Part shown: piece by piece, positions 26,878-51,980 of the stretch
Layout of the letters: each line of letters opens with the position of its first letter
How positions within the stretch are numbered: the first letter of the stretch is position 1
From: Sphingopyxis sp. MSC1_008
Lineage (GTDB): Bacteria; Pseudomonadota; Alphaproteobacteria; Sphingomonadales; Sphingomonadaceae
Assembly (NCBI RefSeq): GCF_023197165.1
Contig: NZ_JALPRD010000005.1
Span: 124,001 to 188,000, forward strand
Direction: 5' to 3'
DNA: 64,000 nucleotides
Position numbers and translations under genes: made by a program
The notes under the pieces: model-generated
Seen by the model: the letters and a program-made list of their open reading frames with translations, nothing else
Database searches by the model: none
Told to the model about the DNA's origin: nothing

Positions 26878-29441
26878 GCGACTTTCTCCACTTCGGCAAG
26901 CAGGCGTTGCAACAGCGCGGGGAGCATGCCGCCGCGCGACAAAATATCGCATTCGGCCTGCGTGTCGGCCGCTAGGCGCGCGGCATAGTGTCGAACTTCC
27001 CCGCGGTCCTCGACGCGCAGCGTGACGAGCGCGCCGGGTTCGAGCGGCACGGTCTCGGGGAAGCCGATCAGCGCGCCCGGCGAAAGCCTCCGCAGCGCGA
27101 TCGCGTCTTCGCGCGCGACGGTCAGCGGCAAGACCGCCATGTTGATCAAATTGCTGCGATGGATGCGTTCGAAGCTCGATGCGATCACCGCGCGCACGCC
27201 GAGCAATTGCGGGCCCTTGGCGGCCCAGTCGCGCGACGATCCGGTGCCGTAACGGTCGCCGGCGACGATCACCAGCGGGGTGCCGTCGGCGGCGTAGCGT
27301 TCGGCCGCGTCCCACAAGGTCATCTCGGCCCCGCTCGGCGCGTGAACCGTTCGCCCGGGCGCGATACCCGGGCGCAGCAGATTGTCGACCGAGGGGTTGG
27401 TGAACAGCCCGCGCACCATTGCCTCCCAATTGCCGCGCCGTGCGGCGAAGACATTGAGGTCACCGGGCGTCTCGCCGCGCTCGATCAGATAGCGTGCGGC
27501 GGGCGTGCCCGCGGGAATGGCGCCCGCAGGCGAAATATGATCGGTCGTGATATCGTCGCCGAGCACGAGAAGCGGCCGCGCCACGGCGCCGTCGAGGGCC
27601 GGCCGCGCATCGGGGCGAACGAAGGTCGGCGGGCGGAGATAGGTCGAGCCCGCGTCCCACGGGAATAAGGCGGCGTCGGGGGCATCGAGCGCGGCCCACG
27701 CCGGGTTCGCTTCAGCGGCGTCATAGCGAAGCTGCACATCGTCCGGCGCGCGCGCATCGGCGAGTAGGCGGTCGATCTCCTCCGCATCGGGCCATATCCC
27801 GTCGAGTGTGACGATCGTGCCGTCGCCGCGATGGCCGATCGGATCGCGCAAAATGTCGCGCGCCGCATCGCCGGCGATCGCAAAGGCGACGACCATCGGC
27901 GGCGACAGAAGGAAGCTTTCGCGCACTTCCGGATGGACGCGGCCGGGGAAGTTGCGATTGCCCGAGAGAACCGCGACCGGCACGACACCCCCGGCAATGG
28001 CATCGTACATTTGCGGCACGAGTGGTCCCGAATTGCCGATGCAGGTCGTGCAGCCGACACCGACGATGCCGAAACCAAGGTCTTCGAGCGGTTCCATCAG
28101 CCCGGCACGGCGCAGCAGCGCCTCGGCGGCGGGCGACCCCGGCGCGAGCGATGTCTTCACCCAATCGGGGACCGTCAGCCCCGCCGCGACCGCATTGCGC
28201 GCGAGCAGTCCCGCCGCGACGAGCATCCGCGGATCGCTGGTGTTGGTGCAACTGGTAATCGCGGCGATCGCGATCGCGCCCGCTGGGATGTCGCTCGCGG
28301 CGACACCTGCGGTGATGTGGGCGGCGGTGTCTCCTGCGGCGCGCAAATCTTGCGGGCGCAATGGCCCGGCGGCGGCGCGCGTAACGTCGGCGAGGTCGAT
28401 CGTCAGCATCTCGGTGTAATCGGGCTCGGCGGCGGGATCGAACCACAGTCCCTGCTGGCGGCAATAATCCTCGACCAGCGCGACAGCGTCCGCCGGGCGG
28501 CCTGTTTCGCGTAGATAGGCGATCGTTCGCGCATCGACCGGAAAAAAGCCCGTCGTCGCGCCATATTCGGGTGCCATATTGGCGACCGCCGCGCGTGTGT
28601 CGGCCGACAGCGTCGCGACGCCGGGGCCGAAATATTCGACGAAGCGCCCCGCGACGCCGTGCGCGCGCAACCTTTGCGTCACGAGCAGCGCAAGATCGGC
28701 GCCGAACACATCGGCCGGCAATTCACCGACCAGCCGTACGCCGACGACATCGGGCACGCGCAGGACAACGGGTAGCCCGAGCATCGCCGCCTCGGCCTCC
28801 AGCCCGCCGACGCCCCAGCCGAGCACGCCGATGCCATTCACCATCGGCGTGTGGCTGTCGGTGCCGATCAGCGTGTCGGGCACCGCCCAGTCGGCGCCGT
28901 CGCGCCGTTCGATGCGCACCACACTCGCCAGCCGTTCGAGGTTGAGCGTGTGCATGATGCCCGTGCCGGGCGGGTGGACGGTCAGCTTTTCAAATGCGCC
29001 GCTCGCCCATTTCATCAACCGCAATCGCTCGGCATTGCGCTCGCGTTCGCGCGCCATGTTGAGCCGCGCCGCATCGGGATCGGCAAAATGGTCGACCGCG
29101 AGCGAATGGTCGGTCGATACGTCGACAGGCACCACCGGATCGATCCGCGCCGGATCGCCGCCCTCGGCCGCCAGCACATCGCGCGCCGCGGCGAGGTCGA
29201 CGAGCGCGGGGACACAGGTCGTGTCGTGCATCATGATGCGCCCGGGATGGAACGGCAGCTCCACGTCGCGCTGTCCGCCGTCGATCCACGCCGCGAACGC
29301 CGCCGCGCCATCGGCGCCGCCCGCACGCAGCAGGTTCTCCGCTACCAGCCGGTGGATCACCGGCATCGTCGCATGCCGCGTACCCAATCGAGCGGGAAGA
29401 TCGATGAAGCGAAGCTGCTGCCCCGCGGTGTCGAGAATCAT
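26874..29441 (-). CDS. Aconitate hydratase family protein (AcnA-like)
   Basis: 855 residues, slightly shorter than the usual housekeeping AcnA (about 890). The [4Fe-4S] cluster cysteines are in TSCTNTSDPRM and GCTTCIGNSGPL, the swivelling fourth domain has DDITTDHISPAG and DRYGTGSSRDWAAKG, and IGTDSHTPMVNGIGVLGWG matches the core. It should interconvert citrate, cis-aconitate and isocitrate or a close homologue such as 2-methylcitrate. As it sits behind a dedicated GntR regulator and its probable box, and opposite a dehydrogenase operon, it is probably a catabolic paralogue rather than the TCA-cycle enzyme. GAGG precedes the start. Confidence 0.9.
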   Translation of the reverse strand: MILDTAGQQLRFIDLPARLGTRHATMPVIHRLVAENLLRAGGADGAAAFAAWIDGGQRDVELPFHPGRIMMHDTTCVPALVDLAAARDVLAAEGGDPARIDPVVPVDVSTDHSLAVDHFADPDAARLNMARERERNAERLRLMKWASGAFEKLTVHPPGTGIMHTLNLERLASVVRIERRDGADWAVPDTLIGTDSHTPMVNGIGVLGWGVGGLEAEAAMLGLPVVLRVPDVVGVRLVGELPADVFGADLALLVTQRLRAHGVAGRFVEYFGPGVATLSADTRAAVANMAPEYGATTGFFPVDARTIAYLRETGRPADAVALVEDYCRQQGLWFDPAAEPDYTEMLTIDLADVTRAAAGPLRPQDLRAAGDTAAHITAGVAASDIPAGAIAIAAITSCTNTSDPRMLVAAGLLARNAVAAGLTVPDWVKTSLAPGSPAAEALLRRAGLMEPLEDLGFGIVGVGCTTCIGNSGPLVPQMYDAIAGGVVPVAVLSGNRNFPGRVHPEVRESFLLSPPMVVAFAIAGDAARDILRDPIGHRGDGTIVTLDGIWPDAEEIDRLLADARAPDDVQLRYDAAEANPAWAALDAPDAALFPWDAGSTYLRPPTFVRPDARPALDGAVARPLLVLGDDITTDHISPAGAIPAGTPAARYLIERGETPGDLNVFAARRGNWEAMVRGLFTNPSVDNLLRPGIAPGRTVHAPSGAEMTLWDAAERYAADGTPLVIVAGDRYGTGSSRDWAAKGPQLLGVRAVIASSFERIHRSNLINMAVLPLTVAREDAIALRRLSPGALIGFPETVPLEPGALVTLRVEDRGEVRHYAARLAADTQAECDILSRGGMLPALLQRLLAEVEKVA

Positions 29442-30408: not shown

Positions 30409-30464
30409 CAAAAACGGCGTGGCGTGTCAGCGACATGACAGCCAAGGGAGTGCAACAGGCGCGT

Positions 30465-33258: not shown

Positions 33259-34674
33259 TTAGGCGACGCCCTTGAGCGTCGCCAGCTGGTCGACCACGCG
33301 GTCGGCTTCGAGGCTGGCCACCGGATAGGCGCAATAGTCAGCGGCATAATAAGCGCTGGGCCGGTGATTGCCGGAGTCGCCGACACCGCCGAAAGGCATA
33401 TCCGACGATGCACCGGTCGTCGCACGGTTACGGTTCACGACACCCGCGCGCGCTTCGACGCGGAAGCGCGCCCAGAGTGCGTCATTGTCGCTGATAAGGC
33501 CAGCCGACAGGCCGAAGCGCGTCGCGTTGGCGGCCGCGAGCGCGGCGTCGAAATCGGCAACGCGGCGGACTTGCAGCACCGGCGCGAAAATCTCCTCATC
33601 GGGGACATCGAGCCCGGTCACGTCGAGGATCGCTGGGCGCACAAACGCCGCCGAACGCCCGGCCACAGGTTCGAATGCGCGGATGACCCGCGCACCCAGC
33701 CCAACCAGGGTTTCGACCTGCACCGCCGCGCGCTCGGCGGCGACCCCAGAGATCAGGGGTCCCATGAAGGGCTCGGGCGAGTCGTCCCACGCACCGATGC
33801 GCAATCGGTCGGTCAGCGCCGCGACGGCATCGACGATGGCATCGCCGCCGGCGCCGGCCGGCACGATCAGGCGCCGCGCGCACGAGCAGCGCTGCCCTGC
33901 GGTAATGAAAGCCGAGCCCACGATGATCGAAGCCGCGGCATCGGGATCGCCTTCCCACGCGATCAGCGGATTGTTGCCGCCGAGCTCGAGCGCGAGGATC
34001 ACCGCGGGCCGGTCGGCGAACAGGCGGCGGAAATGCGCCCCAGCACCCGCCGAGCCCGTGAACAATAGCCCATCGATATCCTGCGCGACCAATGCCGCAC
34101 CGGTATCGCGCCCGCCCTGGACGAGGATCGCGGCATCGGCGGGCACGCCCGCGGCGTGGAGCGCCTCGACGAGCAATTGACCGACCAACGGTGTCTCTTC
34201 CGAAGGTTTGAACACCACTGAATTGCCCGCGAGCAGCGCGGGCACGATATGGCCGTTGGGCAGGTGCCCGGGGAAGTTATACGGGCCAAGCACCGCCATC
34301 ACGCCATGCGGCCGATGATTGAGCCGCGCGCGGCCGAAGGTGGTTTCGCTTTCGCGCGCGCCGGCGCGTTCGGTCATCGCCTTCACCGAGATCGCGACCT
34401 TGCCGATCATCGAGGCGACCTCGGTCTGCGCCTCCCACAAGGGCTTGCCCGTTTCGCGAGCAATGGCTTCGGCGAGCGCAGCCTGTCGTTCGCCCAGCAC
34501 CGCGGCATAACGCTGCAGGACGGCGATGCGTGCGTCCGCGGACTGCCCGGCCCAGGCGGGAAACGCCATCCGTGCTGCCGCAACCGCGCGCACGCAATCG
34601 TCGGCCGACGCCGCGGCGCCTTCCCAGACGATATCGCCGCGCGCCGGGTCGATCGAAGTGAAGGCGGTACTCAT
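33259..34674 (-). CDS. astD: N-succinylglutamate 5-semialdehyde dehydrogenase
   Basis: 471 residues from the ATG at 34674, which overlaps the transaminase stop (ATGA). The AstD-type features are TFGRARLNHRPHGVMAVLGP, YNFPGHLPNGHIVPALLAGN, the base glutamate in LALELGGNNPLIAWEG, the catalytic cysteine in TAGQRCSCARRL and the C-terminal TGASSDMPFGGVGDSGNHRP, which separates AstD from other aldehyde dehydrogenases. It performs the fourth step of the arginine succinyltransferase pathway, oxidising succinylglutamate semialdehyde to succinylglutamate. It forms a coupled pair with the transaminase. The final enzyme, AstE, is not in the window. Confidence 0.93.
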   Translation of the reverse strand: MSTAFTSIDPARGDIVWEGAAASADDCVRAVAAARMAFPAWAGQSADARIAVLQRYAAVLGERQAALAEAIARETGKPLWEAQTEVASMIGKVAISVKAMTERAGARESETTFGRARLNHRPHGVMAVLGPYNFPGHLPNGHIVPALLAGNSVVFKPSEETPLVGQLLVEALHAAGVPADAAILVQGGRDTGAALVAQDIDGLLFTGSAGAGAHFRRLFADRPAVILALELGGNNPLIAWEGDPDAAASIIVGSAFITAGQRCSCARRLIVPAGAGGDAIVDAVAALTDRLRIGAWDDSPEPFMGPLISGVAAERAAVQVETLVGLGARVIRAFEPVAGRSAAFVRPAILDVTGLDVPDEEIFAPVLQVRRVADFDAALAAANATRFGLSAGLISDNDALWARFRVEARAGVVNRNRATTGASSDMPFGGVGDSGNHRPSAYYAADYCAYPVASLEADRVVDQLATLKGVA

Positions 34675-35870
34675 GCCGCGACCTCGACCGCAGCCGTCAT
34701 CGCCGCACAGGTCGCGTCGAGCCGCGCGATGACTTCGTCGGCTTCGGCGAAGCTCATCGTCAGCGGCGGCAGCAGCCGCACACAATTGTCGCCGCCCCCC
34801 GCGACGAGCAGGCGCTGATCGCGCGCCGCGGCGATGAAGGCGCGGTTGTTGGGAACGAGTTTCAGTCCGATCAGCAGCCCCTTGCCGCGCACTTCGGCGA
34901 TTACGTTCGGCCAGCCGGCGGCGAGCGTTTCAAGGCTGGCGCGCAGCCGGTCGGACAGCGCCCTCGCATGATCGAGCGTCTCGGGCTTCGCAATTTCGTC
35001 GAACGCCGCGATCGCGACCGCCATTGCGAGCGGGTTGCCGCCAAAGGTCGATCCGTGGCCGCCCGGCTGCATTCCCGAGGCCGCATCGGTCGTGGCAAGA
35101 CAGGCGGCGACCGGAAGCCCCGAGCCCAGCGCCTTGGCGACCGCCATGATGTCGGGTTCGGTGCCCGGAAACCACTGATGCGCGAACAACTGGCCCGTGC
35201 GCCCCATGCCGCTCTGCACTTCGTCATAGATCAGAAGCACGCCGGCCGCGGTGCAGGCCGCGCGCAGGCTTTCGAGGAAGCCGCGCGTCATCGCGCGCGC
35301 GCCGCCCTCGCCCTGCACGGGTTCGATCAGCACCGCGGCGGTCGCGGGATCGGCGATTGCGGTGGCGAGCGCGGCCCAGTCGTCGGGCGACAGATGGACG
35401 AAGCCCGCCATCGGCTCGCCGAACCCGTCGAGGTGCGCGGCGTTGCCCGCGGCATTGAGCGCGGCGTAGGTGCGGCCGTGGAAAGCGCCATGGAAGCCGA
35501 TGATCGTCTGGCGCTGCGGCGCGCCGCGCGCGGCGTGATAGCGGCGTGCGACCTTGATCGCGCATTCGACGGCCTCGGTCCCGGTGTTGGCGAAAAAGAC
35601 CGTATCGGCGAAGCTGGCATCGGTGAGGCGGGCTGCCAGCGCATCCTGCCCCGGCACCTGGAACATGTTCGACACATGCCAGAGCTTGTTCCCCTGCTCG
35701 GTCAGCGCCGCGACGAGCGCGGGGTGGCAGTGTCCAAGCGCGTTCGACGCAACCCCGGCGACGCAATCGAGATAGGGTTCGCCGCCTTCGGAGCTGTAAA
35801 GCCAGGGACCTTCGCCCTTGACGAAAGCCAGCGGAGCGCGGGCGTAAACATTCATGAGCGGGCTGGTCAT
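34671..35870 (-). CDS. astC: Succinylornithine/acetylornithine transaminase
   Basis: 399 residues from the ATG at 35870, six bases after GGAG; a TTG 12 bases upstream is not needed. A class III (ornithine-type) aminotransferase: FANTGTEAVECAIKVAR for phosphate binding, FHGAFHGRTYAAL, IYDEVQSGMGRTG with the PLP aspartate, the Schiff-base lysine in AVAKALGSGLP and STFGGNPLAMAV. Sequence alone does not separate ArgD from AstC, but coupling to AstD and the presence of AstA in the window favour succinylornithine catabolism. The promoter region upstream has two nested dyads. Confidence 0.88.
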   Translation of the reverse strand: MTSPLMNVYARAPLAFVKGEGPWLYSSEGGEPYLDCVAGVASNALGHCHPALVAALTEQGNKLWHVSNMFQVPGQDALAARLTDASFADTVFFANTGTEAVECAIKVARRYHAARGAPQRQTIIGFHGAFHGRTYAALNAAGNAAHLDGFGEPMAGFVHLSPDDWAALATAIADPATAAVLIEPVQGEGGARAMTRGFLESLRAACTAAGVLLIYDEVQSGMGRTGQLFAHQWFPGTEPDIMAVAKALGSGLPVAACLATTDAASGMQPGGHGSTFGGNPLAMAVAIAAFDEIAKPETLDHARALSDRLRASLETLAAGWPNVIAEVRGKGLLIGLKLVPNNRAFIAAARDQRLLVAGGGDNCVRLLPPLTMSFAEADEVIARLDATCAAMTAAVEVAA

Positions 35871-35921
35871 CGCATTCTCCAAAGGCTGTGCGATGCCCGG
35901 ATTATATTCTTAATGATCAAT

Positions 35922-41788: not shown

Positions 41789-42820
41789 TCATGCGACCAT
41801 GTCCAGCCCTGCGGGCGAGGAGCGGAGCTGCTCGCCGCGATCGGCGCCGAGCGCGCGGACCACATCGTCGCCGAGCGCAATCTCGCCCGGAGCGGGGCGC
41901 GCCGCGGCCAGCGTGACGCGGAAGCGGTTGAGGTCGCCGGTACAGACCAGATAGTCGCGCGCGCCGGGCGCAAAATTGGGCGAGATTGTCACCGGAAGGC
42001 CGCAGCGCGACTGCCGCACGGTGGCGATCTGGTCGCGGTCGCAATGCACCTGCGGCCCGACGTCGAACACATCGACATAGCCTTCGTAACGAAAGCCCTC
42101 CTGCATCAGCATCGCCCGTGCCGGCGCGCTGGCATCGTGCGGGCGGCCGATCACCGCGCGTGCCGCGTCGGGGAGCAGGTCGATATAGATCGGGTGCTTG
42201 GGCAGCAGGTCGGCGATGAAATCGGCGCCGCGCACCGCGCTCAGCCGGTCGGCGGTGGCGAAATCCATGTTGAAGAAGCGCGCGCCGACCGCATCCCAGA
42301 ACGGATTGCGGCCGTTCGCATCCTGCCAACCGCGCATTTCCGCCATCAAAAGCGGCGCGAACAGGTCGGGCCGCGTCGCGACCAGCATGTAGCGCGCGCG
42401 TGCAAGCAGGCGTCCGGCGCCGCTCCCCTTCTCGCTCGGCCGGACCGCGAGCGTCCCGACCTCGGTCGTGCCCGTATAATCATTGGCGAGCGTCAGCATC
42501 TCGACGTCGCAGCTCGCGCCGACTGCCTGGCTGCGCTGGACGAGCCGGATACGCTTGTACGAAAAGAAGCCGAAGGGCGCACCGACCGAGGGATAGAGCG
42601 CCGAGGTCCCGAGCAGCCGTCCCTCGGCATCCTCGAGCACCAGCATATAATGCGCGTCGGCGCGATCGATGTTTCCGGCAAAGCTGGCGACCGACCGCTC
42701 CACCTTTTCGGCGAGCGCGGTGCGGTCGGCGGGCAGCGTCGTCATGCCCGGGCCGAGGCTGTCGGCAAGGTCGACGAGCGCCGTAAGGTCGCGTGTTTCG
42801 ATCGGGCGGACGACACGCAT
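41789..42820 (-). CDS. astA: Arginine N-succinyltransferase
   Basis: 343 residues, the usual AstA length. The start ATG overlaps the PepSY stop by one base (TGATG). Characteristic AstA wording is VVRPIETRDLTALVDLADS, GMTTLPADRTALAEKVERSV, the GNAT-like core LTLANDYTGTTEVGTL, LLMAEMRGWQDANGRNPFWD and the C-terminal half with EGFRYEGYVDVFDVGPQVHC. It transfers succinate from succinyl-CoA to the alpha-amino group of arginine, step one of the AST pathway. AstB (succinylarginine dihydrolase) is absent, so the pathway must be completed elsewhere, or the enzyme handles ornithine or another amino acid. It is the third gene of a coupled operon with an M20 peptidase and a PepSY protein. Confidence 0.93.
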   Translation of the reverse strand: MRVVRPIETRDLTALVDLADSLGPGMTTLPADRTALAEKVERSVASFAGNIDRADAHYMLVLEDAEGRLLGTSALYPSVGAPFGFFSYKRIRLVQRSQAVGASCDVEMLTLANDYTGTTEVGTLAVRPSEKGSGAGRLLARARYMLVATRPDLFAPLLMAEMRGWQDANGRNPFWDAVGARFFNMDFATADRLSAVRGADFIADLLPKHPIYIDLLPDAARAVIGRPHDASAPARAMLMQEGFRYEGYVDVFDVGPQVHCDRDQIATVRQSRCGLPVTISPNFAPGARDYLVCTGDLNRFRVTLAAARPAPGEIALGDDVVRALGADRGEQLRSSPAGLDMVA

Positions 42821-43944
42821 CAGACGCCCTCCGCCATCGCGTGCGCGCGCGCTGCCGGCGCCCGCTTGCGCTGGCGCGACGTGCGCGAAAACCAGAGCCA
42901 CAGCCCGCTCGCCGAAAGCCCGGCGAGCGTGGCGCCCGCGATCAGCATGAGCAGGCGGGTGGCCGTGCCGCCGAACATGCCCGTATGGAGCGTGATCAAC
43001 CAGTCGACGATCTCGGTCCCCACGGGCAGCGCCCCCGAGACATAATGGCCAACGTCGCTGCCGTCGTAGCGGCTGTAATAGATTTGCTTGGCGCCCTCGG
43101 CGCGGACCGTGAGGTCGCTTTCGAGGAAGATCGCCGCGACGCGACCTTCGTCGGAAAAACGGATCTGGCGAAGCGCTGTTGCGCCATATTCGGCGCGCGC
43201 CTTTGCCACCAGCCGGTCGAGCGGCACCATCGTCGCGCCGGATTGCTCGCCGACTTTCGGCGTCGGCTTGTCAGTCACCGGCGTGACGATGCGAAGCACG
43301 TCGCGAAACTCGGGCTTCCAGACCATCAGCACGCCAGTCGTCGCCGACATCACAAGCACGACAGCAATCGACGCGCCGACTGCACGGTGCAAGGTGCGCC
43401 ATTTGAGATCGGCGCCCCGGTCGGTGATCAGCTTGAATCCCTGCTTCAACCGCTTGCGCCCAGGCCACCATACGAGGGGGCCCGTTAGCGCGAGAAACAG
43501 GAGGCCAAGGCCCTCGATCCCGACGATGGTTTCGCCGAACGGACCTGCGAGCAGGCTGTCGTGGATCAGGAACATCCATTCGCCCGGCCATGCCGCGAGC
43601 GACCCGTCGCGGACGATCACGCCGCGATAGGGATCGACCGCGGTCAGCCAGCGCGTTCCGTCCTTCGCGGTCAGCTTGAACAGCACCGCACCGTCGTCCC
43701 ACGCCGGAAATTCGGCGCGGCTGACCGGTACGCCCGGATGCCATGCCTCGACGGCGTCCATCAACGCTTGGACGGGCACGCGGCGGGCCTCCGGTTCGAC
43801 CACCAGCGCCGGATGGATCACCCGGTCGATCTCGTCGCGAAAGACGAGCGACATCCCGCTGAGCCCCTGAATCGTCAGCAACACCGCGAGGGTCAGGCCG
43901 ACCCAGCGGTGAAGCTTGAGAAATTGGGGCTTCAGTGCCTTCAT
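42820..43944 (-). CDS. PepSY-associated transmembrane protein
   Basis: 374 residues with four membrane helices: an N-terminal LHRWVGLTLAVLLTIQGLSG, two in the middle (GLGLLFLALTGPLVWWPG and VGASIAVVLVMSATTGVLMV) and one at the end (LLMLIAGATLAGLSASGLWL). Two periplasmic PepSY-like stretches lie between them, and conserved histidines in the helices (LHRWVG, LHRAVG, LHTGMFGG) suggest haem or iron binding. Relatives are inner-membrane ferric-siderophore reductases or accessory proteins next to TonB receptors. It is coupled to the peptidase (ATGA) and to AstA (TGATG), an unusual mixture of iron and arginine functions. Confidence 0.88.
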   Translation of the reverse strand: MKALKPQFLKLHRWVGLTLAVLLTIQGLSGMSLVFRDEIDRVIHPALVVEPEARRVPVQALMDAVEAWHPGVPVSRAEFPAWDDGAVLFKLTAKDGTRWLTAVDPYRGVIVRDGSLAAWPGEWMFLIHDSLLAGPFGETIVGIEGLGLLFLALTGPLVWWPGRKRLKQGFKLITDRGADLKWRTLHRAVGASIAVVLVMSATTGVLMVWKPEFRDVLRIVTPVTDKPTPKVGEQSGATMVPLDRLVAKARAEYGATALRQIRFSDEGRVAAIFLESDLTVRAEGAKQIYYSRYDGSDVGHYVSGALPVGTEIVDWLITLHTGMFGGTATRLLMLIAGATLAGLSASGLWLWFSRTSRQRKRAPAARAHAMAEGV

Positions 43945-45371
43945 CGCGCGCTCGAGTAGGTCTTGACGAGACGATAGAGGAACTGGCGCGCGTCATAGAG
44001 CGACTTCACACGCACGCGTTCGTTGAGCCCGTGGACGCCATTGCCGTCGGGATCGACGAAAATCGCCGAAATGCCATAGGTCGGGATGCCTGCGCTGTTC
44101 AGGAAACGGCCGTCGGTCGCGCCGGTGCTGATATTCGGGATCACCGGCACGCCGGGCCACATTTCGGCCACCAGCTTTTCCACCGGCTTCATGATTTCGG
44201 GGGTGAGCGGCGGCGGCGGCGGCACCGGGCTGGGTTCATCGAAGGGTTCGACCGAAATTCGCGGATCGGCGACGACCTGGGTCAACGCCTTGTGGATCGT
44301 ATCGATGCTCGTGCCCGGCAGGATGCGGCAATTGACGTTCGCCTCGGCGCGTTGCGGCACGGCATTATGCGCATGGCCGCCCGTCACCTGCGTGTTTGTG
44401 CATGTGGTGCGGATCATCGCATTCCAGACCGGATCGGCCTTGCTCAAAAGCTCGAGCGCCGCGGCATCGTCCTTGCCCGCACCGGCGAGGCGCATCGCAT
44501 CGCCCTTCTCGCCCGGATAGAGCGGCGCCGAGCGGGCAAAGAAATTGCGCACAGCATCGCCGGGCATCGCGGGGAAGTGATAATTGCCCACGCGCGCCAG
44601 CGCTTCCGACAGCCGGGTGATCGGATTGTCGGGGTGCGGCCGCGCGCTGTGCCCGCCCGGTCCCGTCGTCGCGAGCGTGAAGTCCTGATAGACTTTTTCG
44701 CCCACCTGGATGCCGAAGGTGCGCGGCGCGCCTTTGTCGTCGAGCCAGCCCTTGCCGCCCTCGTTGATCGCGAAGCCCGCCTTCAGCGTGTCGGGCTCGG
44801 TCGCGAGCAGATATTCGACCCCGTCGAACACGACGTCGGTCTCCTCGCCGCACGTCAGCGCGAGCTTGATCGTGCGGCGCGGCTTGAACTTCTCTTCGCG
44901 GTAGCGGACCAGCGAGTCGACGAAGATCGACGCCATCGCCTTGTCATCGATCGCGCCGCGCGCAAAGAAATAGCCATTTTCCTCGACCAGCTTGAACGGG
45001 TCGCGCTCCCAATCCTCGCGCTTCGCCTCGACGACGTCGATATGCGCGACGAGCAGGATTGCCGGCGCCTTGGGGTCGCTGCCGGAGATTTCACCGACAA
45101 GATTGCCGAATTTCGGGAACTTCTCGGGAACGACGACGCGGAACTGATTTTCGGGATAACCCGCCGCGACGAGCCGCGCCTTCATCCGGTTCGAAGCAAG
45201 GGTGCAATCGCCGTTCGAGAGCGAGGTGTCGGTCTCGATCAGTTCCTTATAGGTTTCGCGAAACCGGTCGCGGCCGGCATCGGTCTGCGCCTGCGCCGAG
45301 ACGGGCAGCAGCAGGCAGGCGGCGAGCGCCGCGTGTGACAATGAGTTGCGAATGACGCCGAATGGACGCAC
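43941..45371 (-). CDS. Exported M20 family metallopeptidase
   Basis: 476 residues from a GTG at 45371 with GGGAGGGAG eight bases upstream. A signal peptide (LSHAALAACLLLPVSAQA) places it in the periplasm, unlike the M20 protein at 24.6 kb. Metal and catalytic residues are in VAHIDVVEAKREDW, GAIDDKAMAS and CGEETDVVFDG, with the second-domain motif GGHSARPHPDNP. Such exported M20 enzymes are dipeptidases or aminoacylases and would feed free amino acids to the cell. It heads the operon with PepSY and AstA, and a CTGTCAC-N4-CTGTCAC repeat lies about 103 bases upstream, tying it to the two-component system next door. Confidence 0.9.
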   Translation of the reverse strand: MRPFGVIRNSLSHAALAACLLLPVSAQAQTDAGRDRFRETYKELIETDTSLSNGDCTLASNRMKARLVAAGYPENQFRVVVPEKFPKFGNLVGEISGSDPKAPAILLVAHIDVVEAKREDWERDPFKLVEENGYFFARGAIDDKAMASIFVDSLVRYREEKFKPRRTIKLALTCGEETDVVFDGVEYLLATEPDTLKAGFAINEGGKGWLDDKGAPRTFGIQVGEKVYQDFTLATTGPGGHSARPHPDNPITRLSEALARVGNYHFPAMPGDAVRNFFARSAPLYPGEKGDAMRLAGAGKDDAAALELLSKADPVWNAMIRTTCTNTQVTGGHAHNAVPQRAEANVNCRILPGTSIDTIHKALTQVVADPRISVEPFDEPSPVPPPPPLTPEIMKPVEKLVAEMWPGVPVIPNISTGATDGRFLNSAGIPTYGISAIFVDPDGNGVHGLNERVRVKSLYDARQFLYRLVKTYSSAR

Positions 45372-45473
45372 GAAAAGCTCCCTCCCAGAAGGTCTAACAA
45401 GACTGATGTGCGGGCTGCGTCCCGCGCTCGCCCTTTCCGGGCGATGCTTATGGGGAGAGACTATGCCGCCTTC

Positions 45474-45502
45474 CTGTCACGGCGCTGTCACGTTGCTGAC
45501 AG
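45474..45502 (-). promoter_or_regulatory. Direct repeat CTGTCAC-N4-CTGTCAC (site 1, peptidase-PepSY-astA operon)
   Basis: Perfect 7-base repeats (45474-45480, 45485-45491) spaced by four bases, followed after another four bases by CTGACAG (45496-45502). It lies between the sensor kinase stop and the M20 peptidase start. The 11-base period fits a tandem OmpR-family response-regulator dimer. The same layout recurs at three other promoters nearby. Confidence 0.65.
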
Positions 45503-45503
45503 G

Positions 45504-46910
45504 TTATGAAGTCGTGTCGACGCCCGTCGAAACCGTCGGAAAACGGACGGTTACGCGGAGCCCCGGCAGGGCGCCGCGGTCGGCGAGTTCGACCTCTGCG
45601 CCAAGGCTGTCGGCCAGCGCGCGCACGATCGCCAGCCCCAGCCCGCTGCCCTCGCGCCCGCGATCGGGCGCCAGCCGCCCGAACCGCTCGAACGCCGTCG
45701 CGCGGGCATCGGGCGGAATGCCGGGACCTTCGTCCTCGACGATCACGGCGCCGTCGCCCAGCACCGTCACCGTGACCACGCCCTTGGCGCGATTGTAGCG
45801 GATCGCATTGTCGATCAGATTGCCGACAAGCTCGCCCGCCAGATCGGGTTGCGAGAGGATCGCGACCGCCTGTTCGGGCGCCTCGAAATGCAGGTCGATC
45901 CCCATCTTCACCGCTTGCGGTGCATGTTCGACGCTCGCGGCGCGTGCGATTTCGGCAAGGTCGGCGGGCCGCCGCAGATCGGGCCCGCCCTCGCGTGCGC
46001 CCTCGGCGCGCGCGAGGGCGAGAAGCTGGGTGAGCAGGCGCTGGAGCCGCCCCGTCGCGGCGTCGATGTCGGTGAGCGACTGCTGCGCCGGCCCTGCGGG
46101 CAGCTTTGCCGAGCGCAGTGCCGCGACATGCGCGCGCAGGATCGACAGCGGCGTGCGCATCTGGTGCGACGCATCGGCGGTGAACCGCCGGATCCCCTGC
46201 ATCGCGGCGTCGAGGCGCCCGAGCAGGCCGTTGAACGCGCCGACGAGCCCGCGCAGTTCGACCGGCACATAGTCGAGCGACAAAGGCGTGAAATCGGCCT
46301 CGCGCCGCGTCCCCATCGCGCTCAGCACGCGCTTGAGCGGCGCGAGCCCCCAGCGCACCGCGAGCGGCAACAGTCCGAGCGACACGGCGATCAGCAACAC
46401 TTCGAGGATGGCGAGCGCGACGAGCATCCGGTCGCGCAGCGCGTGGCGCGCCTCGAGCGTTTCGGCGACTTCGACGATGACCGGCCGGTTGATCCGTGGG
46501 ACCTTGCGTGCGACCGCGGCGATGCGGATGCGATAATCGCGATAATAGGCATATTGATAGACCATCTCGCCATCGTCGTCGGGCAGCGTGCTGACACGCG
46601 GAAGGTCGGGATAGCCCGTGAGCAATTCGCCGTTCGCCCACACGCTGTAATAGACATTATCGCGCGCGTCGTTTTCGAGCATGCCGAGCGCCGACGCCGG
46701 CAGGTCGAGCGTCACCTCGTCATTTTCGAGTGCAAGCGTTTCGGCGATCGCGCGCGCGGAGGCGCCGAGCAGGCGGTCGTTCACGCCCTCGACGACTTCG
46801 TTGATCGTCACCGCACCGCCGACGCCGAGCAGCAGCGCGAGCGCGGCCAACGGGAACCCCATCCCCACCATCATCCGGCGTGTGATCGAACTGACGCGCC
46901 GCGCGGGCAC
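45504..46910 (-). CDS. Sensor histidine kinase, TctE-like
   Basis: 468 residues. The GTG start at 46910 abuts the response-regulator stop codon. Two membrane helices (about 15-36 and 161-185) bracket a periplasmic sensor domain of about 125 residues of the 2CSK_N/TctE type. A HAMP-like stretch, the phosphorylated histidine in ADASHQMRTPLS (His249), the N box NLIDNAIRYNRAKG, G1 VEDEGPGIP and G2 GSGLGLAIV follow. TctE kinases respond to tricarboxylates such as citrate. The adjacent CitMHS transporter and orphan binding protein support this. It forms a complete pair with the next regulator. Confidence 0.9.
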   Translation of the reverse strand: MPARRVSSITRRMMVGMGFPLAALALLLGVGGAVTINEVVEGVNDRLLGASARAIAETLALENDEVTLDLPASALGMLENDARDNVYYSVWANGELLTGYPDLPRVSTLPDDDGEMVYQYAYYRDYRIRIAAVARKVPRINRPVIVEVAETLEARHALRDRMLVALAILEVLLIAVSLGLLPLAVRWGLAPLKRVLSAMGTRREADFTPLSLDYVPVELRGLVGAFNGLLGRLDAAMQGIRRFTADASHQMRTPLSILRAHVAALRSAKLPAGPAQQSLTDIDAATGRLQRLLTQLLALARAEGAREGGPDLRRPADLAEIARAASVEHAPQAVKMGIDLHFEAPEQAVAILSQPDLAGELVGNLIDNAIRYNRAKGVVTVTVLGDGAVIVEDEGPGIPPDARATAFERFGRLAPDRGREGSGLGLAIVRALADSLGAEVELADRGALPGLRVTVRFPTVSTGVDTTS

Positions 46911-47579
46911 CTATTCGTCTTCCATCAGATAGCCAAGGCCGCGCAGCGTCCGGATCGTCGGGCCATCGGGTTCGAGCTTCTTGCGCAGCCGGGCGATATA
47001 GACCTCGATCGCATTGGGCGCGACGGGCTCGTCATAGCCGAAGACCTCGGACGCCAGCCGGTCCTTCGACACTACCTGCCCGACGCGCGAGAGCAGCCGT
47101 TCGAGCACGACCCATTCGCGGCGGCGGAGGTCGAGGTCGCGCCCGTCGATTCGCGCGACATGGTGCGAACGGTCGAATTCGAGCTTACCGACGCGGATAA
47201 CCGGCGCCGGATCGACCTGCGGCCGCCGCAGCAGCGCGCGGATGCGCGCGGCGAGCTCGCGCGGCTCGAAGGGTTTCAGCAGATAATCGTCGGCGCCAAG
47301 GTCGAGGCCCCTCACCCGGTCGTCGATCTCGTCGCGCGCGGTCAGGATCAGCACCGGCGCATGACAGCCTTTGGCGCGGAGCGATTTCAGCACATCGAAC
47401 CCCGACATGTCGGGAAGCCCGACGTCGAGCGTGATAATCGCATAGGGCTCGTCCGACGCCATCATCAGCGCCGACGCCCCATCAGGCGCGGGATCGACCG
47501 AATAGCCCTCGGCCGTCAGCGCCGCGACCAGCCCACGCGACAGAGCGGCATCGTCTTCGATCAGTAATATGCGCGCCAT
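46911..47579 (-). CDS. OmpR-family response regulator, TctD-like
   Basis: 222 residues from the ATG at 47579; the longer upstream frame crosses the promoter and is rejected. The receiver domain has the acidic pair Asp9-Asp10, the phospho-acceptor Asp52 (LDVGLPDMSG), Thr80 and Lys102 (LLKPFEPREL). The C-terminal winged helix contains LDLRRREWVVLERLLSRVGQ and AIEVYIARLRKKLEP. TctD-type regulators activate tricarboxylate uptake genes. The divergent promoter in front of it contains the CTGTCAC repeat, so autoregulation is likely. Confidence 0.92.
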   Translation of the reverse strand: MARILLIEDDAALSRGLVAALTAEGYSVDPAPDGASALMMASDEPYAIITLDVGLPDMSGFDVLKSLRAKGCHAPVLILTARDEIDDRVRGLDLGADDYLLKPFEPRELAARIRALLRRPQVDPAPVIRVGKLEFDRSHHVARIDGRDLDLRRREWVVLERLLSRVGQVVSKDRLASEVFGYDEPVAPNAIEVYIARLRKKLEPDGPTIRTLRGLGYLMEDE

Positions 47580-47590
47580 TGTCTCGATCC

Positions 47591-47608
47591 GTGACAGCCG
47601 GTTGACAG
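47591..47608. promoter_or_regulatory. Direct repeat site 2 (regulator / binding-protein divergent promoter)
   Basis: On the minus strand this reads CTGTCAA-CCGG-CTGTCAC; on the plus strand GTGACAG-N4-TTGACAG. It lies between the response-regulator start and the binding-protein start. Same 7-4-7 spacing as the other three sites, with one mismatch. Confidence 0.65.
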
Positions 47609-47662
47609 GTTGACCATGTTTCCCTTGGCCATAAACATAAGCGAAATTGGGGAGAAGAACAC

Positions 47663-48778
47663 GTGGTGCATTTCGCGGGGCGAAGGAAGTTTGCAGCAAC
47701 ACTCTTGCTGGCGCTCCTCGGCCCGGCGCTGCTCACCTCTGCCGCCAAGCCGCTCAGCGATCCGCCGAAAGGCTATCCGCGCTCCTATCGAACGATCATG
47801 GACGCGGCGCGCGCCGAACGGACGCTGGTTGTCTATTCGACGACCGACCGGCGCGAGGCGGCTGGCCTGATCGCCGCGTTCGAGAAACGCTATCCCTTCG
47901 TCCGCGTCGATTATCGCGAAATCACCACGGCGGTCCTGCACAACCGCGTCATCGCCGAAGCGCGCGCGAAGCGGCCCGGCGCCGACCTGTTGTGGAGCGC
48001 GGCGATGGATCTGCAGACCAAGCTGGTCAACGACGGCTATGCGCAGGCCTATGCCTCGCCCGAAAAACCGTATCTGCCGCCGTGGGCGGTGTGGAAGAAC
48101 GAAGCGTGGGGCACGACCGCCGAGCCCGTCGTCTTCGCCTATAACCGCAAGCTGGTGCCCGCCGCCGACGTGCCGCGCACCCACGCCGACCTCACCCGCC
48201 TGCTCCGCGCCAAGGCGCGCTATTACCGCGGGCGCATCGCCACCTATGACCCCGCCCGGTCGAGCGCCGGCTATCTGTTCCTGAGCCAAGACCTGCAGGT
48301 CAGCCGCGACACCGTGCCGTTGATGGCGGCGCTGGGACAGACGAAGGTCACGACCTATCCCACCAGTTCGGAAATGCTGACGCGGCTCGGCGACGGGCGG
48401 CTGGCCTTCGTCTACAATATGATCGGTTCCTATGCGCTCGAACGCCAGTCGCACGATGCGAACATCGGCGTCGTGATGCCGAGCGACTATACGCTGATCA
48501 TGTCGCGGATCGCGATCATTCCCGATCAGGCACGGCATCCCAACGCCGCGAAGCTGTTCCTCGATTTCATGCTGTCGCGTGCGGGTCAGGCCCAGCTTTC
48601 CTATCGCTATATGACCCCCGTGCGCGCCGATGTGCGCGCCCGGGCGGGTGCCCGCGCGCCCGCCAGCGCCGCGCGCACCTTGCGCATCGGTCCGGCGCTG
48701 ATCGCCAATCTCGATCAGATGAAACGCCGCCGTATCATGAACCAATGGCACGCCGCGGTCGGCACGCCCAAAAAATAG
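47663..48778 (+). CDS. Orphan ABC-type periplasmic substrate-binding protein (family 1)
   Basis: 371 residues from a GTG at 47663 preceded by GGGGAGAAG. A signal peptide (FAATLLLALLGPALLTSAA) is followed by a type II binding-protein fold: TLVVYSTTDRREAAGLIAAF, YREITTAVLHNRVIAEARA, ADLLWSAAMDLQTKLVND, WGTTAEPVVFAYN. This wording is close to iron(III)- or 2-aminoethylphosphonate-type binding proteins. No permease or ATPase gene is nearby. The position opposite a TctDE-like pair, and the shared repeat, suggest it may present its ligand to the sensor kinase, as described for some tricarboxylate systems, rather than serve an ABC importer (inference). Confidence 0.85.
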   Translation: MVHFAGRRKFAATLLLALLGPALLTSAAKPLSDPPKGYPRSYRTIMDAARAERTLVVYSTTDRREAAGLIAAFEKRYPFVRVDYREITTAVLHNRVIAEARAKRPGADLLWSAAMDLQTKLVNDGYAQAYASPEKPYLPPWAVWKNEAWGTTAEPVVFAYNRKLVPAADVPRTHADLTRLLRAKARYYRGRIATYDPARSSAGYLFLSQDLQVSRDTVPLMAALGQTKVTTYPTSSEMLTRLGDGRLAFVYNMIGSYALERQSHDANIGVVMPSDYTLIMSRIAIIPDQARHPNAAKLFLDFMLSRAGQAQLSYRYMTPVRADVRARAGARAPASAARTLRIGPALIANLDQMKRRRIMNQWHAAVGTPKK

Positions 48779-48789
48779 CGTCCGCCGCG

Positions 48790-50139
48790 TCATCCAGCGT
48801 GGAGCGGGAATATGCCGGTCAACAGGCATGTCGCCATGAAGACGAAGCATGCGCCGACCGCCCAGCGGAAGATATATTTCTGATGATCGCCCAGCTCGAT
48901 GCCCGACATGCCGACGAGCAGATAGGTCGAGGCGACGAGCGGGCTGAGCAAATGGATTTGCTGTCCGACGAGTGACGCGCGCGCCATTTCCATCGGCGTC
49001 ACGCCATATTCGGTCCCCGTCGCGGCGAGAATGGGCAGCATGCCGAAATAGAAGGCGTCGTTCGAGATCAGCACCGTGAAGGGCATGCTGATCAGCGCGG
49101 TGATCGGCGCCATATAGGGGCCCAGCGCATCGGGGATGACCGCGACCACCGACCCCGCCATCGCATCGACCATCTTCGTCCCCGACAAGATGCCGGTGAA
49201 GATACCCGCCGCGAACACGAGGCTGACGGTCGCCATCGCATTGCCCGCGTGCGCCGCGATGCGATCCTTCTGCTGTTGAAGATTGGGATAGTTGACCGCC
49301 GCCGCGATCGCGAAGGCACCCATGAACAGGATGACGAGCGGGATCGAACCACCGATCAGCAGGCCGAGCAGGCCGAGGGTGAGCGCGAGGTTGAACCAGA
49401 AGAGCCCCGGACGGCGATGGTCGTCGCCATCCATCTGTTCGCGGATCACTTCCTCGCCCGTCGCATCCTCGTCGACCGCGTCGGCCGGCAGCATCGCCAG
49501 CCGCTTGCGTTCGCGGCGGCCAAAGACCCACGCGACGAACAGGACCCAGATCGCGGTGGTGATCATCGCCGGGATCAGCGAGACGAACAGCGCGCGCGGA
49601 TCGACCCCCAGAGCGAGCGCGGCGCGTGTCGTCGGGCCGCCCCACGGAACGACATTCATCACCGCGACCGACATCATGATCAGGCACGCCATGATGCGGA
49701 CGTCCATTTTCATATGGCGATAGAGCGGCAGCAGCGCCGAGACGGTGATCATGTACGTGGTGGTGCCGTCGCCATCGAGCGCGACGATCAATGTCATCAC
49801 CGCGGTGCCGATGCAGATGCGCATCGGGTCGCCATGGACGATGCGGACGATCGTCTTCACCAGCGGATCGAACAGCCCGACGTCGATCATGAGCCCGAAA
49901 TAGAGGATCGCGAAGAGCAGCATCACGCCCGTCGGCGCCAGGTCGCGGACCCCCGTCAGCATCATCTCGCCGAGCCCTGCGCCAAAGCCGGCGATCAGCG
50001 CAAAGATCGTCGGGACGACGATCAGTGCGATCAGTGCCGACAGCCGCTTCGTCATGATCAGCGTCATGAACGTGGCGACCATCAAAAATGCCAGAAGTGT
50101 GAGCATCATCCCCGTCTCGATTACAGGTGCCTGTTTCAT
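48790..50139 (-). CDS. CitMHS-family citrate / carboxylate transporter
   Basis: 449 residues, about twelve hydrophobic helices, no cleaved signal. Family wording includes LAPTGVMLLFAILYFGLMID, ALDGDGTTTYMITVSALLPL, VVPWGGPTTRAALALG, AAGIFTGILSGTKMVDAMA and LISNDAFYFGMLPILAATG. CitMHS proteins carry citrate, usually as a metal complex, with protons. It sits 39 bases from direct-repeat site 3 and next to a TctDE-like system, the classical control for citrate uptake. The imported tricarboxylate could enter the aconitase module at 26.9 kb. The loop around residues 225-245 (DEDATGEEVIREQMDGDDH) is strongly acidic. Confidence 0.92.
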   Translation of the reverse strand: MKQAPVIETGMMLTLLAFLMVATFMTLIMTKRLSALIALIVVPTIFALIAGFGAGLGEMMLTGVRDLAPTGVMLLFAILYFGLMIDVGLFDPLVKTIVRIVHGDPMRICIGTAVMTLIVALDGDGTTTYMITVSALLPLYRHMKMDVRIMACLIMMSVAVMNVVPWGGPTTRAALALGVDPRALFVSLIPAMITTAIWVLFVAWVFGRRERKRLAMLPADAVDEDATGEEVIREQMDGDDHRRPGLFWFNLALTLGLLGLLIGGSIPLVILFMGAFAIAAAVNYPNLQQQKDRIAAHAGNAMATVSLVFAAGIFTGILSGTKMVDAMAGSVVAVIPDALGPYMAPITALISMPFTVLISNDAFYFGMLPILAATGTEYGVTPMEMARASLVGQQIHLLSPLVASTYLLVGMSGIELGDHQKYIFRWAVGACFVFMATCLLTGIFPLHAG

Positions 50140-50177
50140 CGTGCACCTTGTTTCATGCTCTGGCTAAGAGGCGATGC

Positions 50178-50195
50178 CTGTCATGCTGCTGTCAC
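50178..50195 (-). promoter_or_regulatory. Direct repeat site 3 (CitMHS transporter promoter)
   Basis: CTGTCAT (50178-50184), four bases, CTGTCAC (50189-50195), 39 bases ahead of the transporter start. One mismatch from the consensus, with identical spacing. Confidence 0.65.
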
Positions 50196-50252
50196 GGGAC
50201 AGAGAGTCTTTTCCGGCAATGTTTCCAGACCGATGGACTGGCCTTCGCAACG

Positions 50253-50283
50253 AAAAAACCCCCGGCGCGCCGTGCGCCGGGGG
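50253..50283 (-). terminator. Rho-independent terminator of the serine hydrolase gene
   Basis: On the minus strand: perfect 10-base arms CCCCCGGCGC and GCGCCGGGGG with a 5-base loop, followed by six T residues. It lies 49 bases after the stop codon of the minus-strand serine hydrolase and separates it from the CitMHS promoter. Confidence 0.92.
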
Positions 50284-50331
50284 AAGGATTTCGGGTGCTG
50301 GTGTCAGGTCAGCACCTTCGATCTGGTTCGA

Positions 50332-51912
50332 TTAGCCGATCCGGCCCTTCAGGGTCGGCAACCGCATCTCGGCCGAATTGACGTTCACGCTGCGATCGAC
50401 CGTCACGCCGCCGTCGCCCGCGAAGGTGCAGACGAGCGTGTCGCGGAAGGCCGTTTCGACGAACTGCCAGGTCATCTCCAGCGTCTGCGGCGAAGTCCAG
50501 CGCGCACCCGCGACGACGCGCTGGCTCGGCGGGCGATATTCATGGTGCAGCCGGTTGCCCGTCATGCTCGTATCCTGTTCGAGATAGTCGGCGAAGCCCG
50601 CGGTGACGGCATGCTCGCCGTGCGCGTCGCGCATCCGGTAGGTGCAGCGATCGCCGGCAAAATCGAATGACAGCCATTCGACATCCTGATCGTTCGTCTC
50701 GACCATCAGCCGCTTGCCGCTGATGCCCGGCGGGACCGGCAGATTGCTTCCCGCGAGCGCGGGCAACAGCCGCAGGCCCGCCGTCTTGCGCTTGAGCACC
50801 ACGGCGTCGGGATCGGCCGGCAGCTTGTTCGCGGCGAAGGCCGCGGGGAAATGTTTCCAGATAAAGGGCTTGATCATCTTGCTGCGGTCGATCGCCGAAA
50901 AAATCGCGAGAACGGCATTATGTTCGGGGAAAACGATCGAGAATTGGCTGAACTTGCCGAGCGCCAGATAGGATTTCCCAGGCCCCATCCACCATTGATA
51001 GCCATAGGCGCCGTCATTATCGCCCGCCGTCTGCCGCGTCGTCGCGGCCTGCACCCATTTTTCGGAAAGGATGCGATGGCCGTTCCATTCGCCGCCAGCG
51101 GCGTGAAGCGCACCGAGCTTGAGCGACGCCGCCGTATTCCACGTCAACCCGTTGCCGCCGGGGCTAACGCCGCCGGGGCTGGTGTCCCAATGCCAGCGGT
51201 CGATGCCCATCGGTTCGAAGAAACGCGGCTTGAGGTAGTCCGCCATCGACTGGCCCGTGGTCTTGCCGACGATCGCCGAGAGCATGAAGCTGGCCGCGCT
51301 GGTATATTGGAAATGCCCGCCCGGCTGATGCACCACCGGGATTTTGAAGAATTCGGCCGCCCATGGCGTCTCGATCGGCCGCCACACCGAACCCGATGTT
51401 TCCGCATCGTGCCCGCACTGCATCGTCAGCAAGTTGCGCACCGTCATCGCGCGCATATTCTCGCTGGCGTCGGCGGGCACATATTCGGGGAAGAAGGACA
51501 CGACCTTGTCGTCGAAGCCAAAGCGCCCCTCGTCGATCGCAAGGCCAACGGCAACTGCGGTGGCGCTCTTGGTCAGCGAGTGCGTCGCATGGATTCGGCT
51601 GGGCGAATAGGGCCACCACCATCCTTCGGCGACGACATGGCGGTTACGCATGAGCATGAAGGAATGAACCTCGAGCCCCGCGCCTTCGACGTCGGCGAGG
51701 AAGGCGAGGATCGCATCGGACGACACACCCTGTGCCTCGGGCGTACTGCGCAGCAGGCCGTCCTTATAAGTGTCGGGCTGGACCGGACCGACGCCGGGGG
51801 GCGCCGCCGAGACGCGGCCGAGACGCTCGACACAGCCGCCGAGCATCACAAAGGCGCTGGCGCCCATCACAAGCTGCCCGGCCCGCCGCCGCGTCACATT
51901 CATCTCATTCAC
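50332..51912 (-). CDS. Exported lipoprotein-type serine hydrolase, class C beta-lactamase family
   Basis: 526 residues if the GTG at 51912 is used, which sits seven bases after GGGGAG; the ATG at 51927 contains that ribosome site and is less likely. The N-terminus has TRRRAGQLVMGASAFVMLGGC, a twin-arginine-like signal ending in a lipobox, so the enzyme is probably a lipoprotein. The catalytic motifs are SLTK (Ser112, Lys115) and YTS, with a C-terminal beta-rich extension of about 170 residues. It is a D-peptidase or esterase relative. Direct-repeat site 4 lies 51 bases upstream, so it appears to belong to the two-component regulon, and a strong terminator ends the transcript. Confidence 0.86.
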   Translation of the reverse strand: MNEMNVTRRRAGQLVMGASAFVMLGGCVERLGRVSAAPPGVGPVQPDTYKDGLLRSTPEAQGVSSDAILAFLADVEGAGLEVHSFMLMRNRHVVAEGWWWPYSPSRIHATHSLTKSATAVAVGLAIDEGRFGFDDKVVSFFPEYVPADASENMRAMTVRNLLTMQCGHDAETSGSVWRPIETPWAAEFFKIPVVHQPGGHFQYTSAASFMLSAIVGKTTGQSMADYLKPRFFEPMGIDRWHWDTSPGGVSPGGNGLTWNTAASLKLGALHAAGGEWNGHRILSEKWVQAATTRQTAGDNDGAYGYQWWMGPGKSYLALGKFSQFSIVFPEHNAVLAIFSAIDRSKMIKPFIWKHFPAAFAANKLPADPDAVVLKRKTAGLRLLPALAGSNLPVPPGISGKRLMVETNDQDVEWLSFDFAGDRCTYRMRDAHGEHAVTAGFADYLEQDTSMTGNRLHHEYRPPSQRVVAGARWTSPQTLEMTWQFVETAFRDTLVCTFAGDGGVTVDRSVNVNSAEMRLPTLKGRIG

Positions 51913-51962
51913 GGCGTCACTCCCCATATCTTTCGATCACGGCCGCATGGTGCGGCACCCGG

Positions 51963-51980
51963 CTGTCACCACGCTGTCAC
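51963..51980 (-). promoter_or_regulatory. Direct repeat CTGTCAC-N4-CTGTCAC (site 4, serine hydrolase promoter)
   Basis: Two perfect copies (51963-51969, 51974-51980), 51 bases ahead of the serine hydrolase start. Spacing and sequence match site 1 exactly. Confidence 0.7.

Follow-up and report, generated by a model that had tools for sequence, protein, structure and literature searches.

A GTGACAG direct repeat as the probable target of a TctD-like regulator at a citrate transport locus of Sphingopyxis

Introduction

A stretch of 64,000 nucleotides from Sphingopyxis sp. MSC1_008 (contig NZ_JALPRD010000005.1, positions 124,001 to 188,000; hereafter the window, in whose own numbering all coordinates are given) carries the direct repeat CTGTCAC-N4-CTGTCAC at four promoters between 45474 and 51980, two copies being perfect and two having one mismatch. 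The promoters surround genes for a TctDE-like two-component system, a periplasmic solute-binding protein and a CitMHS citrate:proton symporter, and the question raised by this arrangement is which regulator reads the repeat and which signal it answers. We consider it probable that the neighboring TctD-like response regulator binds the repeat, and that the repeat marks a local regulon signaled by citrate or metal-citrate. A first-pass annotation of this DNA had ascribed the repeat to a dimer of the OmpR type in a local regulon linking carboxylate uptake to peptide and arginine use; PhoB, an obvious rival given the Pho-box architecture of the repeat, had not been considered. The parts of the literature accessible to us contained no description of this box in this bacterial family.

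Results

Each box comprises two 7-bp half-sites separated by 4 bp, and the four sites that had been reported at 45474, 47591, 50178 and 51963 were recovered with 0, 1, 1 and 0 mismatches, respectively. Box 1 (45474..45491, reverse strand) presents GTGACAG-N4-GTGACAG towards an operon headed by an M20 peptidase gene, and is overlapped by a match with two mismatches (45485..45502, reverse strand) in which a degenerate third half-site, CTGACAG at 45496-45502, continues the same 11-bp period upstream; no such third half-site is seen at the other three promoters. Box 3 (50178..50195, reverse strand, one mismatch) lies ahead of the CitMHS gene and box 4 (51963..51980, reverse strand, perfect) ahead of a serine hydrolase gene; orthologues of box 4 stand ahead of the same gene in four genomes (G020, G032, G451, G463). 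Box 2 (47591..47608, forward strand, one mismatch) had been placed ahead of a regulator/binding-protein pair; it does lie between these two genes, but its direction favors the binding protein as the target, an assignment that is uncertain as the box starts just 12 bp ahead of the start codon of the TctD-like regulator.

Allowing two mismatches, the window holds six matches against 0.16 expected from dinucleotide shuffles (maximum of 2 in 100 shuffles). The earlier statement that no other copy is present in the window holds at one mismatch or fewer, while two more copies appear at two mismatches, namely the overlapping match at 45485-45502 and a site at 30424-30441 considered below. The genome-wide search that had been proposed was run over 4,751,798 bases: the exact pattern CTGTCAY-N4-CTGTCAY occurs at three places, all at this locus (reversed control pattern, 0), and five places lie within one mismatch of CTGTCAC-N4-CTGTCAC, four of them at this locus, so that no further exact member and one site with up to one mismatch are found elsewhere. 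This agrees with the proposal of a local regulon. At two mismatches the pattern matches 25 places and the reversed control 18, and the two-mismatch sites outside the locus are therefore near background. Coding sequence holds 8 of the 14 annotated two-mismatch sites, and an equal rate of occurrence across coding sequence, which the first-pass annotation had named as contrary evidence, was not observed. A wide regulon in this genome was also considered and rejected, given that among the 25 two-mismatch sites a box with at most one mismatch and a promoter position are combined only in the local group.

The period of 11 bp fits a dimer of an OmpR/PhoB-type regulator, as had been suggested, and what ties the box to TctD is that it recurs in other genomes at TctD-type loci. 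When 397 genomes of the family were searched with the regulator protein, 19 hits at E ≤1e-75 (our own genome included) provided 18 other loci, picked by the TctD-like regulator alone and without reference to the box. With up to two mismatches and the N4 spacer, 20 matches were found in 14 of the 18 loci, compared with 0-5 matches for each of 12 other spacers (N0 to N12) and a mean of 2.39 for permuted half-sites (300 permutations; repeated with 200), the highest-scoring of which were mostly shifted versions of the same box. Among these loci, 16 were found to encode CitMHS and 15 the binding protein, and in 8 of the 18 a box stands between the regulator and the binding protein. Boxed genes in relatives include those for CitMHS, TonB-dependent receptors, sodium:dicarboxylate symporters, serine hydrolases and PGA_cap proteins.

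The same recurrence bears on the possibility that another OmpR-type regulator, rather than the neighbor, reads the boxes. The genome encodes at least 10 further response regulators that are 33-48% identical to TctD, boxes in some relatives are close to paralogues of TctD at roughly 40% identity (L258, L261, L264), and of the 13 sites in the family that match the composite promoter pattern described below, 4 have no TctD homologue within the fetched 15 kb, one of these adjoining a PstS gene. Yet 9 of the 13 composite sites do lie in loci with a TctD homologue, and the boxes recur in most of the TctD-picked loci while the neighboring genes vary, so that we regard the involvement of a different regulator as very unlikely.

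The boxes have a preferred direction. Across 38 fetched TctD-type regions, 44 boxes are one-sided, having a gene start on a single side; 42 of these present GTGACAG-N4-GTGACAG to the gene and 2 have the opposite orientation. The count of 42 includes orthologues and the overlapping 45485 match, and 32 two-sided sites as well as 3 without a nearby gene start were set apart. Boxes 1 and 3, the one-sided boxes of the window, are likewise reversed, with GTGACAG towards the gene. The repeat of the first-pass annotation is real, but better read on the other strand. By comparison, among 30 loci listed from a family-wide pattern scan made without regard to the regulator, CTGTCA faces the gene at 17 of the 18 one-sided main sites.

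It is this direction that sets the boxes of the locus apart from Pho boxes. If they were Pho boxes read by PhoB, the locus would belong to the phosphate regulon, and several observations are compatible with this: the architecture is that of a Pho box (7-bp repeats, a 4-bp spacer and a CTGTCA core), Pseudomonas aeruginosa PhoB is described as binding head-to-tail GTCA(C/T) half-sites (PMC8041468), the genome encodes a PhoB of its own (339 bits, over the cut-off), and the closest box with an AT-rich spacer precedes the pst operon of the same genome. However, the pst/pho boxes, at 8 family loci and at two places in our own genome (pst; DUF47/PhoU_div), point CTGTCA at the gene, with a single exception at a PhoR-like gene (L073:12489, reverse), opposite to the boxes at the TctD loci. 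Phosphate-related genes were absent among the 20 window proteins covered by the domain scan, and the promoter geometry described next separates the two directions as well. Taken together, a PhoB-read phosphate locus appears quite unlikely. The TctD-like regulator and PhoB differ at several recognition-helix positions in the alignment, which allows, without proving, a different half-site; by analogy with the Salmonella PhoP box considered below, GTGACAG may well be the direct half-site of the TctD-like regulator itself, with the likeness to the Pho box falling on the opposite strand.

A recurring forward box, CTGTCAC-N4-CTGTCAT, with a TA about 7 bp past it, was also seen at six loci (L039, L047, L049, L051, L056, L057) ahead of genes of roughly 207-243 codons that are unrelated to TctD. 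It could represent the code of another regulator or an unrecognized Pho target.

Of 43 sites with a reversed box, 34 have a -10-like TA 11-12 bp past it (24 of 29 when one site per clade and target is kept), whereas the best other position pair reaches 11 of 43 and none of the 22 forward boxes has TA at 11-12 bp. This rule was derived from the same 43 sites and subsequently tested on genus loci that were fetched later: among boxes with at most one mismatch, TA was present in 15 of 22 in TctD-type regions and in 0 of 20 elsewhere (Fisher 1.9e-6), or in 11 of 15 once 7 orthologues of the window promoters were removed. The regions fetched for the 20 comparison loci were 3 kb, and one region of the test set (L263) contains no TctD gene itself, although its contig carries one about 25 kb away. 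In the window, candidate -10 elements are TAGTCT (45458..45463, reverse strand), 10 bp past box 1, and TAGCCA (50161..50166, reverse strand), 11 bp past box 3. In alignments of five orthologous promoters the columns of the box and of the -10 are conserved while the flanks vary, most clearly at CitMHS, where TAGCCA is invariant, and the half-sites of box 1 and the TA of its candidate -10 element are invariant too. A composite pattern of box plus TA occurs at 13 places in 9 of the 397 family genomes, compared with 3 for the control. Two of the other two-mismatch sites in our own genome have TA at 11-12 bp, namely the pst box (L007) and L021.

With 10-11 bp between its end and a -10 element, a box takes the position typical of class II activation by regulators of the OmpR/PhoB family. 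Direction and -10 geometry together thus point to the TctD-like regulator, rather than PhoB, in the -35 region. The regulator might instead bind the boxes and repress, with the repeat laid over the -35 region: GTGACA resembles the -35 hexamer TTGACA, and P. aeruginosa TctD is described as opposing PhoB at shared promoters (PMC4513871). Against this, the fixed spacing between box and TA leaves no normally spaced -35, since a half-site serving as such would be only 10-11 bp from the -10, and the promoters should consequently need an activator. A PhoP box placed 12 nt upstream of the -10 in Salmonella is moreover reported to activate, and to do so in one orientation only (PMC3335776). Repression therefore seems unlikely to us, and activation is the reading that we carry forward.

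A number of observations weigh against assigning the box to the TctD-like regulator. The box is absent from 4 of the 18 loci (L091, L092, L097, L099), a single locus (L100) supplies 6 of the 20 matches, and the unrelated half-site TTCGCAC, which is not a shifted version, gives 17 matches in 12 of the 18 loci. Boxes 2 and 4, ahead of the binding protein and the serine hydrolase, lack TA at 11-12 bp (box 4 has CACCAT there), and so do their orthologues in the genus. The box alone is not diagnostic, as a match is found somewhere in 81 of 298 family genomes and 38 of 60 genus genomes, and many sites are orthologous, hence not independent. Lastly, no enrichment was detected among 80 named, more distant TctD homologues (40-51% identity), with 6 matches against a permuted mean of 4.37, and use of the code therefore appears confined to this family or to one subgroup of regulators. 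A related binding protein is encoded in 6 of these 80 distant loci, 2 of which show a weak box followed by TA at 11-12 bp (L170 and L173, with 2 and 3 mismatches), too few to be interpreted.

Genes of the Locus and Their Surroundings

The genes are arranged in the order AstA-like acyltransferase, PepSY_TM protein and M20 peptidase (reverse strand); TctE-like kinase and TctD-like regulator (reverse); solute-binding protein (forward); CitMHS and serine hydrolase (reverse); and CoA-transferase (forward). Gene starts were assigned by a basic script-based gene caller, which frequently sets them too far upstream. The response regulator (46911..47579, reverse strand), of the OmpR/PhoB type, has NCBIfam TctD as its best match, at 208.1 bits, which does not reach the equivalog cut-off of 337. 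The sensor histidine kinase (45504..46910, reverse strand) carries the 2CSK_N sensor domain (PF08521, 112.1 bits), and adjoins the OmpR-type regulator, as in TctDE systems. No tripartite tricarboxylate transporter is present beside the pair; the locus has instead the CitMHS symporter (48790..50139, reverse strand; TIGR00784, 587.7 bits against a cut-off of 259.7). The start codon annotated for it at 50139 is not retained in orthologues, and its true start probably lies downstream.

The solute-binding protein (47663..48778, forward strand) is closest to the metal-citrate-binding protein MctA. By sequence, its nearest solved relatives are 3c9h and the 7f6 series; by structural comparison of its model (mean pLDDT 71.0; weak at residues 316-351) the MctA entries of the 7f6 series come first (Z 34.2-36.5, 36% identity, 316-318 residues), followed by 3c9h (Z 32.3) and the next at 26.3, and similarity to MctA in both sequence and fold exceeds that to other binding proteins. 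Six residues of MctA are named as mutated in the entry titles, and were mapped by hand on the alignment with a numbering offset deduced from the S79A entry: D62, S200 and Y257 are identical, T60 and S235 are conservatively replaced, and A113 is changed, this position being Ser in 12 of 14 relatives. A literature search for a paper on MctA found none. Because of the CitMHS gene next door and the similarity to MctA, and by analogy to BctC in Bordetella, the binding protein is likely to act as a co-sensor of citrate or metal-citrate.

The proposed link to peptide and arginine use is left unproven by the remaining boxed genes. The M20 metallopeptidase (43941..45371, reverse strand) belongs to an uncharacterized M20 subfamily, and is followed by the PepSY_TM membrane protein (42820..43944, reverse strand), recognized by a domain match, and by the AstA-like acyltransferase (41789..42901, reverse strand). 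The family match of the latter begins at residue 28-30, so that its true start is probably near 42820, and its score of 323.5 falls below the AstA equivalog cut-off of 391 but exceeds the cut-off of the broader arginine/ornithine succinyltransferase subfamily. Genes for AstD and an ArgD/AstC-like aminotransferase are found near the AstA-like gene, at 33259-35882, and have no box, which makes the arginine link weak. PepSY_TM proteins appear in part of the literature as siderophore or metal reductases. Combined with the nearby TonB-dependent receptors, whose scores are slightly under the siderophore-receptor cut-off, this makes handling of metal-citrate or siderophores an equally fair guess for the theme of the M20-PepSY-AstA operon. 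For the locus as a whole, (metal-)citrate is better supported than peptide or arginine use. The serine hydrolase behind box 4 (50332..51927, reverse strand) has a beta-lactamase fold (PF00144).

The site at 30424..30441, noted above at two mismatches, was rejected as a fifth member: it is an inverted repeat, TGTCA-N6-TGACA, flanked by the gene of a GntR regulator and an isocitrate-dehydrogenase-like gene, and it starts 23 nt ahead of the ATG of the latter, leaving no room for a -10 element. Its half-sites are retained in two relatives (G020 and G032), and it is likely to be a GntR operator. An AcnA-type aconitase gene (26874-29441) adjoins this region. Among relatives, an aconitase gene adjoins CitMHS in one case, with a box in between (L087, 10954-14852), and in another (L257, 11109-18892, in G451) a second CitMHS gene, 84% identical to that of the window, and a pair of TonB-receptor genes each have further boxes with TA at 11-12 bp.

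Discussion

We suggest the following scenario. A pair of GTGACAG half-sites with a period of 11 bp, aimed at the target gene, would occupy the -35 region, where the TctD-like regulator could act as a class II activator, the TA 11-12 bp past the box serving at many promoters as the -10 element. The signal would be citrate or metal-citrate, probably extracellular, bound by the periplasmic MctA-like protein and relayed to the TctE-like kinase; the output could comprise CitMHS, the binding protein itself (a positive feedback), the M20-PepSY-AstA operon and the serine hydrolase. For a group of TctD-like regulators the box thereby offers a DNA code open to testing, and the promoter model of box, 10-11 bp and TA can be used to scan other sequences. 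The locus also places a citrate symporter together with an MctA-like binding protein that may serve as a co-sensor.

A further consequence is that a search for Pho boxes in this family will return citrate promoters too if the direction of the matches is ignored. A more speculative extension, which we regard as doubtful, is that PhoB and the TctD-like regulator share a near-identical 18-bp code and are separated by its direction, PhoB activating where CTGTCA faces the gene and the TctD-like regulator where it faces away, in which case PhoB might sit unproductively on the citrate boxes and damp citrate uptake under phosphate starvation. If true, this would be an orientation-coded version of the PhoB/TctD antagonism of P. 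aeruginosa.

Comparison with Known Systems

The box resembles the Pho box in its two 7-bp direct repeats, its 4-bp spacer and, on one strand, its letters, but differs in its direction relative to the gene, in the GC-rich spacers of the window boxes and, among the boxes compared, in the spacing to the -10. With the PhoP-box promoters described in Salmonella it shares a position about one turn upstream of the -10, orientation dependence having been reported there (PMC3335776), whereas half-site and regulator are different. The binding protein matches MctA in overall fold and at 36% identity; the MctA entries describe a component of an ABC transporter, whereas neither an ABC permease nor an ATPase is found among the 20 scanned window proteins. 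In Bordetella pertussis, the BctDE system is reported to need the periplasmic citrate-binding protein BctC for full induction (PMC5812351), and the window likewise combines a two-component system with a periplasmic protein predicted to bind citrate, although BctC is of the TctC type, from the tripartite tricarboxylate family, and the window protein belongs to the ABC-type MctA group. The TctDE systems of Salmonella and P. aeruginosa, the latter described as having a small regulon that includes tctD and the opdH-tctCBA operon (PMC4513871; PMC10865840), similarly pair an OmpR-type regulator and a kinase with control of adjoining citrate uptake genes; here, CitMHS takes the place of TctCBA and the MctA-like protein that of TctC, and the regulator scores under the TctD equivalog cut-off. 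The locus is best read as a new variant of citrate regulation of the TctDE/BctDE type.

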